From contig NZ_CP019070.1 in the NCBI RefSeq assembly GCF_001956695.1, positions 2,294,001 through 2,358,000 of the forward strand: a stretch of DNA of 64,000 nt, in the 5' to 3' direction. The translations under genes and the position numbers were made by a program. Positions 18,065-19,476 of this stretch are shown in pieces. Under the pieces are notes generated by a model. That model was not told the DNA's origin and searched no databases. It saw only the letters and a program-made list of their open reading frames with translations. The first letter of the stretch is position 1. Each line of letters opens with the position of its first letter. Source of the DNA: Poseidonibacter parvus (GTDB taxonomy: Bacteria; Campylobacterota; Campylobacteria; Campylobacterales; Arcobacteraceae).

Positions 18065-19090
18065 TTATTTTTTAAATTCATCTATTAATTTATCTAAATC
18101 ATCACCAATTAAATCATGATCTTTATCACCATGAATATGCTTTGCAACAGAAATTTCTTGTGAAGTACCATCATCTTCAAAAAGATTATTTAAGTATGAA
18201 GAGAGTTTTCTAATTACAGACATTACTCTTTCAATCTTTTGTCTATTTATATCATTAAACTGCATTAATTCCATAGCTTCAAAGATTTTCATATCTTCAG
18301 AGTTAACAATATTTGATATTTCACTGATATCTTTTTTCATTAAATTAGATAACTCTTTTTGCGTGTTAAATATTTCAATATTCGGAAATTTTGCACTTAA
18401 TGAATTTAGCAATTCTAATTCAGAATTAATATATTTATCAAAACCTTCAATCTTATTTCTAATTTCAGTATTATTATCTAAAGTTAAACTTAAAACATCA
18501 AATATTTGAGATACTTTTTCTTCAGAATCATTTGCAACTTGAGTTAATTGATTAACTACTTTTGTATTACTATCAGCAGGTAAAGGGAAGACACCTTCAT
18601 TAATTTTAGAATCAGCCCAGTCTTTACCGATTTCATCTTTATTATCATTTTCTTGAATTTTGTCATCACTTATTTTACTTGTAGATTCAACTATTCCTTC
18701 TTCATCAGCAGAAATATCATCAAAACTATCAGTTGTAATATCATTGTTAACAATTGGGTCTAAATCCATATCATCTAAAGGATCAATTTTACTCTCAACT
18801 TCATCAGTATCTTCTTTTTCAAGTTCAAGATCTTTTATTAAAGTATCAACATCATCACTACTTACAACTTCATTGGATGAAGGCTCTTCAATTTCTTCAA
18901 TAACTTCTTTATCATTTTCATCAGCTGCACTAACTTCATCATTTTGTGAAATTAATTCTTCGATTTCATCAGTATTAACACTTACATTTTCCTCTTTAGA
19001 AGGAACATCATCTTTAGCACTTGAAGCATCATCATCAACTATATCTAGACCGTTCATTAAAGCTTCAATTTCTTCTTGACTCATACTCAT
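18065..19090 (-). CDS. cheZ: CheZ-like CheY-P phosphatase with repeated FliM-type CheY-binding motifs
   Basis: The 341-residue protein begins MSMSQEEIEALMNGL, close to the CheY-P-binding peptide at the start of FliM (SQxEIDALLNG). Similar acidic motifs recur at about 38-50 (NTDEIEELISQN) and 76-88 (SSDDVDTLIKDL), in a long acidic, disordered region reaching about residue 165. The helical C-terminal half carries MQFNDINRQKIERVM, in which D280 and Q284 match the catalytic D-x3-Q of CheZ. The last residues, DDLDKLIDEFKK, resemble the CheY-binding tail of enteric CheZ. cheY is 14 bases upstream. The phosphatase role is a strong inference; the motif array is discussed in the findings. Confidence 0.82.
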   Translation of the reverse strand: MSMSQEEIEALMNGLDIVDDDASSAKDDVPSKEENVSVNTDEIEELISQNDEVSAADENDKEVIEEIEEPSSNEVVSSDDVDTLIKDLELEKEDTDEVESKIDPLDDMDLDPIVNNDITTDSFDDISADEEGIVESTSKISDDKIQENDNKDEIGKDWADSKINEGVFPLPADSNTKVVNQLTQVANDSEEKVSQIFDVLSLTLDNNTEIRNKIEGFDKYINSELELLNSLSAKFPNIEIFNTQKELSNLMKKDISEISNIVNSEDMKIFEAMELMQFNDINRQKIERVMSVIRKLSSYLNNLFEDDGTSQEISVAKHIHGDKDHDLIGDDLDKLIDEFKK

Positions 19091-19104: not shown

Positions 19105-19476
19105 TTATTTTTTTAATACTCCATCAAGCTTTTCTTTTAAAATTTCTGCATTAAAAGGCTTAACTATATAGTTATTAACACCTGCTTTAAGCGCTGTTAT
19201 AACTTCCCCTTTACCACCTTCAGTAGTAATCATAATAATTGGTGTTTTCATATGAGCACCACCAGCTCTTGTTTTTTGAACAAGTTCTAAACCATTCATA
19301 TTTGGCATATTCCAATCTGTCAAAATTACATCATATTGAGATTCTTCAAGAAGTTTCCAAGCTTTTACACCATCTTCTGCTTCATCAAATTCTTCTTTTT
19401 TAAAACCTAATTGCATGACTACATTTCCGATTATTCTTCTCATTGTAGAACTGTCATCAACTATAAGAATTTTCAT
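19105..19476 (-). CDS. cheY: CheY, chemotaxis response regulator
   Basis: This 123-residue single receiver domain has acidic residues D7 and D8, phosphoacceptor D54 in VILTDWNMPN, T84/T85 in ITTEG and K106 in VKPF, all the conserved CheY sites. The short length and lack of an output domain fit a motor-binding CheY. It is the first gene of the long minus-strand flagellar block and is followed by the CheZ-like gene. A TATAAT element lies about 44 bases upstream of its start, and AAGGGTTAAGAA precedes the ATG. Confidence 0.95.
   Translation of the reverse strand: MKILIVDDSSTMRRIIGNVVMQLGFKKEEFDEAEDGVKAWKLLEESQYDVILTDWNMPNMNGLELVQKTRAGGAHMKTPIIMITTEGGKGEVITALKAGVNNYIVKPFNAEILKEKLDGVLKK

Follow-up and report, generated by a model that had tools for sequence, protein, structure and literature searches.

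The cheZ locus of Poseidonibacter parvus

The window considered here, a stretch of 64,000 nucleotides from the genome of P. parvus, contains a flagellar gene block encoding FliH, FliG, FliF, a rod protein, an FlgE/F/G-type protein, CheZ, and CheY. The gene for CheY (CheYz) lies 14 bases upstream of cheZ (Table 1), and its product displays 49% identity to CheY of E. coli and possesses the equivalents of W58, Y106, K109, and K119. In Arcobacter, cheYZ have been described as remnants of an ancestral F3 chemosensory class that receive their input at present from an acquired F7 class, and CheYz has been reported to retain FliM-binding residues (PMC9321776).

The genome of P. parvus encodes one full copy of CheZ, which starts with MSMSQEEIEALMNGL. 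NCBIfam model NF041271 (Phos_CheZ) matches residues 130-339 (E=8.4e-29) with 100.8 bits versus a curated cut-off of 350, PF04344 is not among the Pfam matches of the protein and reaches E=5e-4 with one relative of another family, and such shortfalls with respect to the library cut-offs of both models are a measure of divergence and not of function. An assignment as FliY was rejected, as the protein shows no CheC or FliN Pfam match and FliY and FliN are encoded elsewhere in the genome. Judged by its sequence, the window protein is a Campylobacterota “remote” CheZ for which dephosphorylation of CheY-P is predicted, an activity reported as demonstrated for CheZ of H. pylori (Lertsethtakarn 2010, as cited in PMC11237671). 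CheZ is encoded in 326 of 397 genomes of Campylobacterota and in 95 of 104 genomes of Arcobacteraceae; seven of the nine Arcobacteraceae genomes without CheZ are also devoid of FliM.

Table 1. Features of the cheZ-cheY region of P. parvus (positions within the window).
Feature	Position	Strand	Description	Basis
cheZ	18065..19090	-	341 aa, Campylobacterota F3-type “remote” CheZ phosphatase	ORF and NCBIfam NF041271 match
cheY (CheYz)	19105..19476	-	123 aa, presumed substrate and ligand of CheZ	Pfam Response_reg, E=5e-28
Docking peptide 1 (putative, FliM-type)	19046..19081	-	Residues 4-15, SQEEIEALMNGL	SQEEIEALM (4-12), score 32; predicted helix 5-12
Acidic low-confidence linker carrying peptides 2 and 3	18593..19042	-	Residues 17-166	pLDDT <50 at 17-38, 54-76, and 90-151
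Docking peptide 2 (putative, FliM-type)	18941..18976	-	Residues 39-50, NTDEIEELISQN	NTDEIEELI (39-47), score 22; predicted helix 40-58
Docking peptide 3 (putative, FliM-type)	18827..18862	-	Residues 77-88, SSDDVDTLIKDL	SSDDVDTLI (77-85), score 27; predicted helix 78-89
Catalytic helical hairpin	18176..18577	-	Residues 172-305	Helices 172-234 and 239-305, pLDDT about 82-96
Catalytic D280	18251..18253	-	Aligns with D143 of E. coli CheZ	Invariant in relatives
Catalytic Q284	18239..18241	-	Aligns with Q147 of E. coli CheZ	Invariant in relatives
Docking peptide 4 (putative, CheZ-type)	18074..18109	-	Residues 328-339, IGDDLDKLIDEF	IGDDLDKLI (328-336), score 17; predicted helix 330-340

Catalytic domain and predicted structure

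An Asp and a Gln residue situated four residues apart on a long helix are a hallmark of CheZ and are found as D280 and Q284, which an earlier note on this DNA had described as intact, as the alignments bear out (Table 1). Other CheZ hallmarks appear in an AlphaFold2 model (20-sequence alignment, mean pLDDT 65), i.e., the long antiparallel helical hairpin that forms half of the four-helix bundle of the dimer, and a C-terminal amphipathic helix (330-340) behind a flexible tether, predicted to be disordered at residues 308-327. Within the low-confidence remainder of the model, helices are predicted at 5-12, 40-58, 78-89, 153-164, and 330-340; four of these five are the motifs described below, and helix 153-164 adjoins the catalytic domain. 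In the model, these helices form islands in disorder, as is typically seen for binding peptides of disordered proteins.

Structural searches with this model by Foldseek and VIA-align returned generic helical hairpins, with CheZ not being listed, and were uninformative, given that long helices resemble a multitude of folds. Searching PDB sequences with the family profile gave a single match, an unrelated chain, and hhalign of CheZ against E. coli CheZ gave a low probability, with the active site being aligned correctly.

Four putative docking peptides and an acidic linker

Candidate peptides were scored with BLOSUM62 against SQDEIDALL, the core of the N-terminus of P. parvus FliM (MAEFLSQDEIDALLDIAE). 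Judged by their scores, peptides 1-3 are of the FliM type with the pattern SQ[DE]EI[DE]xL[LM], and they are predicted to be helical. On the same scale, E. coli FliM scores 34 and the C-terminus of E. coli CheZ (SQDQVDDLL), which is known to form a CheY-binding helix, reaches 32, like the N-terminal peptide of P. parvus CheZ. In peptide 4, residues D331, L335, and I336 are invariant in relatives.

The earlier note had recognized a FliM match at residues 1-15, which holds as a match with its extent narrowed to residues 4-15. Its two further motifs, at about 38-50 and 76-88, are placed here at 39-50 and 77-88, and the fourth one, at the C-terminus as in enteric CheZ, is found at 328-339. The acidic disordered region, which it had called a tail, is indeed acidic and contains stretches of pLDDT <50, and it is an N-terminal linker.

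Residues 120-135 of CheZ (about 18686-18733) are a degenerate relative of an FDDILxGIDG element that is repeated in many Arcobacteraceae members (e.g., L114, L121, and L123). This element resembles a weaker docking motif and may constitute a second motif class.

Inner peptides are under purifying selection

As the linker is strongly acidic, one might suppose that low-complexity acidic sequence holds D/E-I-D/E-x-L strings by accident, and shuffled linkers do often contain a single match if the threshold is low (0.54 per linker at score 16). However, in the window CheZ alone, two inner copies at a score of at least 22 are found (p=0.002 versus composition shuffles), and a strict motif regex matches three times in the 85 ORFs (23,187 aa) of the window, each time in CheZ and in none of the other ORFs. 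Among 88 distinct Arcobacteraceae linkers, 62 contain at least one match at score ≥22, and the mean is 1.12 per linker versus 0.039 (SD 0.022) in shuffled and 0.27 in reversed linkers, i.e., an about 29-fold excess over the shuffled ones. In nine close relatives, motif 2 is the most conserved 9-mer of the linker and motif 3 forms a second conserved island.

Selection was studied in 24 non-overlapping species pairs, with the motif codons being defined by a match of the motif regex in one of the two species. The N-terminal peptide shows a dN/dS of 0.00 (0 nonsynonymous differences in 797 sites), the C-terminal peptide 0.04, the catalytic domain 0.072, and the inner motifs 0.097, compared with 0.307 for the remaining linker. 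Synonymous rates do not differ between inner motifs and linker (0.385 and 0.362; p=0.53), and the constraint therefore acts on the protein sequence and not on the DNA. The motifs display a higher identity than the linker in 21 of the 24 independent pairs (Wilcoxon p=5e-5). This difference is also seen separately for hydrophobic (0.957 versus 0.781), acidic (0.918 versus 0.805), and other residues (0.867 versus 0.693), and 42 of 45 inner motifs are retained at the corresponding alignment position of the second species. The inner copies are under purifying selection, which is confined to the motifs, and on the grounds of shuffled and reversed linkers, the background within the window, selection, and conservation, we reject a chance origin, which is extremely improbable.

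Distribution of the peptides in Campylobacterota

Our survey covered CheZs of Campylobacterota and, in addition, CheZ of E. coli. From 134 Arcobacteraceae loci, 131 were extracted and provided 90 distinct CheZ sequences; one of the three loci left out is cut by a contig end. The N-terminal peptide occurs in 90 of the 90 because its presence was required for extraction. With a looser regex, at least one inner copy is present in 86 of them (range 1-5), with one copy in 24 proteins, two in 37, three in 24, and five in one, and none in the remaining four. Both the number of inner copies and their location vary within the family. The strongest multiplication of the motif is encountered in L072/L127, L125, L126, and L053, where the arm carries three to five inner copies such as STEDIDELL, SNTDIDELL, SDTDIDELL, SSDEIDSII, and DTSEIDDMI.

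In CheZs from other families of the Campylobacterota, the N- and C-terminal peptides are both present in 33 of 33 proteins, for 20 of which the first ATG had been taken regardless of the motif, and inner copies were found in none of these 33. In a tree of the catalytic domain, Arcobacteraceae CheZs form one clade (support 100), on which the presence of inner copies requires five changes, as could result from a single gain and four losses. From this distribution it follows that, for the Campylobacterota CheZs examined, the pair of end peptides is ancestral and that the inner copies are an addition of the Arcobacteraceae. The earlier note had made its proposal depend on conservation of the repeated motifs in close relatives, and they are conserved. 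Its observation of repeated FliM-type peptides on a CheZ is well supported, with the qualification that only the inner copies are special to Arcobacteraceae and the end pair occurs throughout the phylum.

The origin of the inner copies within the Arcobacteraceae speaks for the possibility that the arm peptides dock other receivers, i.e., F7-CheY, CheYm, CheYw, CheYc, or receiver domains of CheV or CheA, so that one phosphatase would serve several regulators. Arcobacter genomes encode five CheYs, and their chemosensory class has been replaced by F7 (PMC9321776); in addition, NTDEIEELI, SSDDVDTLI, and IGDDLDKLI differ from each other, as different partners would predict. However, among Arcobacter CheYs the key FliM-binding residues are reported for CheYz only (PMC9321776), and the N-terminal peptide is conserved throughout the phylum, even in species with one CheY. 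We regard such a division of labor as unlikely.

Short CheZ paralogs

A further CheZ-like protein of 118 amino acids is encoded between truD-like and chemoreceptor genes of P. parvus (L232:1501-1854; positions 919157-919510 of the contig). An active-site helix with D-x-x-x-Q is present, the C-terminus carries the peptide DELEALIKQM, and a Pfam search gave no match. Matches to this short CheZ exist in 92 of 104 Arcobacteraceae genomes, in a few cases via the main CheZ alone. Short forms of 117-121 amino acids, present in Poseidonibacter and several other genera, keep the C-terminal peptide and do not possess the N-terminal one. Longer forms of 152-163 amino acids (L179:1520-1984, L180:1518-2003, L182, and L183) keep both end peptides, the N-terminal one being MTQEELDALMAG. 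As the longer form of L179 occupies the same truD/chemoreceptor site, the N-terminal peptide seems to have been lost from the short form.

A proposed phosphatase with several CheY-docking tethers

Motif presence, conservation, and selection, together with predicted helicity, active-site residues, and lineage distribution, are direct observations, and they lead us to consider it somewhat probable that CheZ is a phosphatase for CheY-P equipped with several tethers that dock CheY, where docking, simultaneous occupancy, and an effect on the response are suggested by the sequence. The hairpin with D280 and Q284 would dephosphorylate CheY-P, and docking would mainly be accomplished by the helix of the C-terminal peptide, in line with E. 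coli, where CheZ owes its main affinity for CheYp to the C-terminal peptide and flexible tether (PMC1447658). The N-terminal FliM mimic might add a weak CheY-P docking site for the α4-β5-α5 face that is used by FliM, and the one to five additional copies on the flexible acidic arm of Arcobacteraceae CheZs might act as extra weak docking sites, in which case a dimer of P. parvus CheZ would expose eight docking peptides per two active sites. Such tethers would raise the local concentration of CheY-P at the enzyme, recapture released CheY-P, and compete with the FliM ring for CheY-P, leading to a stronger or steeper termination of the signal. The earlier note had proposed the capture of several CheY molecules and a steep or buffered termination, which might likewise follow from such tethers.

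Deletion of the N-terminal region of H. pylori CheZ leaves phosphatase function and the role in biofilm formation intact, and deletion of the C-terminus does not (PMC11237671). The N-terminal deletion suggests that the arm peptides are accessory, and CheZs of 117-121 amino acids that keep only the C-terminal peptide support this view. In our analysis, the arm peptides probably provide additional docking for tuning of the response and take no part in catalysis.

The same dispensability of the N-terminal region for phosphatase function would also suit arm peptides that are localization signals for a non-receiver partner, such as ChePep, CheO, or the C ring, and that place CheZ at the pole or the motor without capturing CheY. 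CheZ of H. pylori is localized via ChePep (PMC7750401, PMC11237671), and CheO of C. jejuni binds CheZ, FliM, and FliY (PMC9665402). However, each copy keeps the hydrophobic and acidic pattern of the CheY-binding sequence of FliM. Furthermore, the localization signal of H. pylori CheZ was reportedly mapped by Lertsethtakarn in 2015 to the central domain and not to the N-terminus. We therefore judge a purely localizing role to be rather improbable.

If the tethers indeed dock CheY-P, they might do so between dimers, and in E. coli, CheYp has been suggested to link CheZ dimers into active oligomers (PMC1447658). The inner peptides might then make CheZ a multivalent scaffold, with CheY-P bridging several dimers into a dense network or droplet only above a threshold of CheY-P and providing switch-like termination. 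Such a scaffold would have arisen in Arcobacteraceae at the time when the ancient CheY/CheZ pair came under the control of the F7 kinase; this extension as a whole is quite doubtful.

For the N-terminal region of Campylobacterota CheZ, the function has been stated to be unknown (PMC11237671). Its description as a nearly invariant FliM mimic throughout the phylum now provides a direct and testable hypothesis for this function. In addition, Arcobacteraceae offer a natural dosage series, from zero to five inner copies, for studying how short motifs in multivalent arrangement modulate an enzyme, in this case CheZ, whose ligand is also that of a molecular motor.

Comparison with known systems

The window protein resembles CheZHP of H. 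pylori, CheZ of C. jejuni, and the F3-class CheZ (PMC9321776), with which it shares family and active site. As in 33 of 33 “remote” CheZs from outside the Arcobacteraceae, an N-terminal [ST]QEE[LI]xxLM and a C-terminal DD[IL]xxLI are present, whereas a longer acidic arm and two extra FliM-type peptides distinguish the window protein from them. With E. coli CheZ (PF04344) it has in common the Asp/Gln pair in a helical hairpin and a flexible linker leading to a C-terminal helix, the CheY-binding helix of the E. coli protein being SQDQVDDLLDSLGF; however, sequence similarity is weak and E. coli CheZ possesses neither an N-terminal FliM-type peptide nor inner copies. A full-text literature search for a FliM-like CheZ retrieved nothing, and an earlier mention in the primary papers on H. 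pylori CheZ is possible.

In FliY of the B. subtilis and T. maritima type, an N-terminal EIDALL-type peptide is coupled to a CheY-P phosphatase. Such FliYs consist of a CheC-type phosphatase fused to FliN, reside in the C ring, and carry one peptide, features in which CheZ of the window differs. In the FliY-like protein of P. parvus (FliMN_C match; about 4.9-5.7 kb, minus strand, L185), which starts with ASDLSNIFKDEL, no EIDALL-type peptide was found, and FliM and CheZ may thus be the only full carriers of this peptide in P. parvus. EIDALL is the CheY-P binding motif of FliM and FliY (PMC9126983), and P. parvus FliM (MAEFLSQDEIDALL) and CheZ share the same type of short, N-terminal, and helical motif. 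Unlike in FliM, the peptide in CheZ is situated on a phosphatase instead of the switch, and it is repeated.
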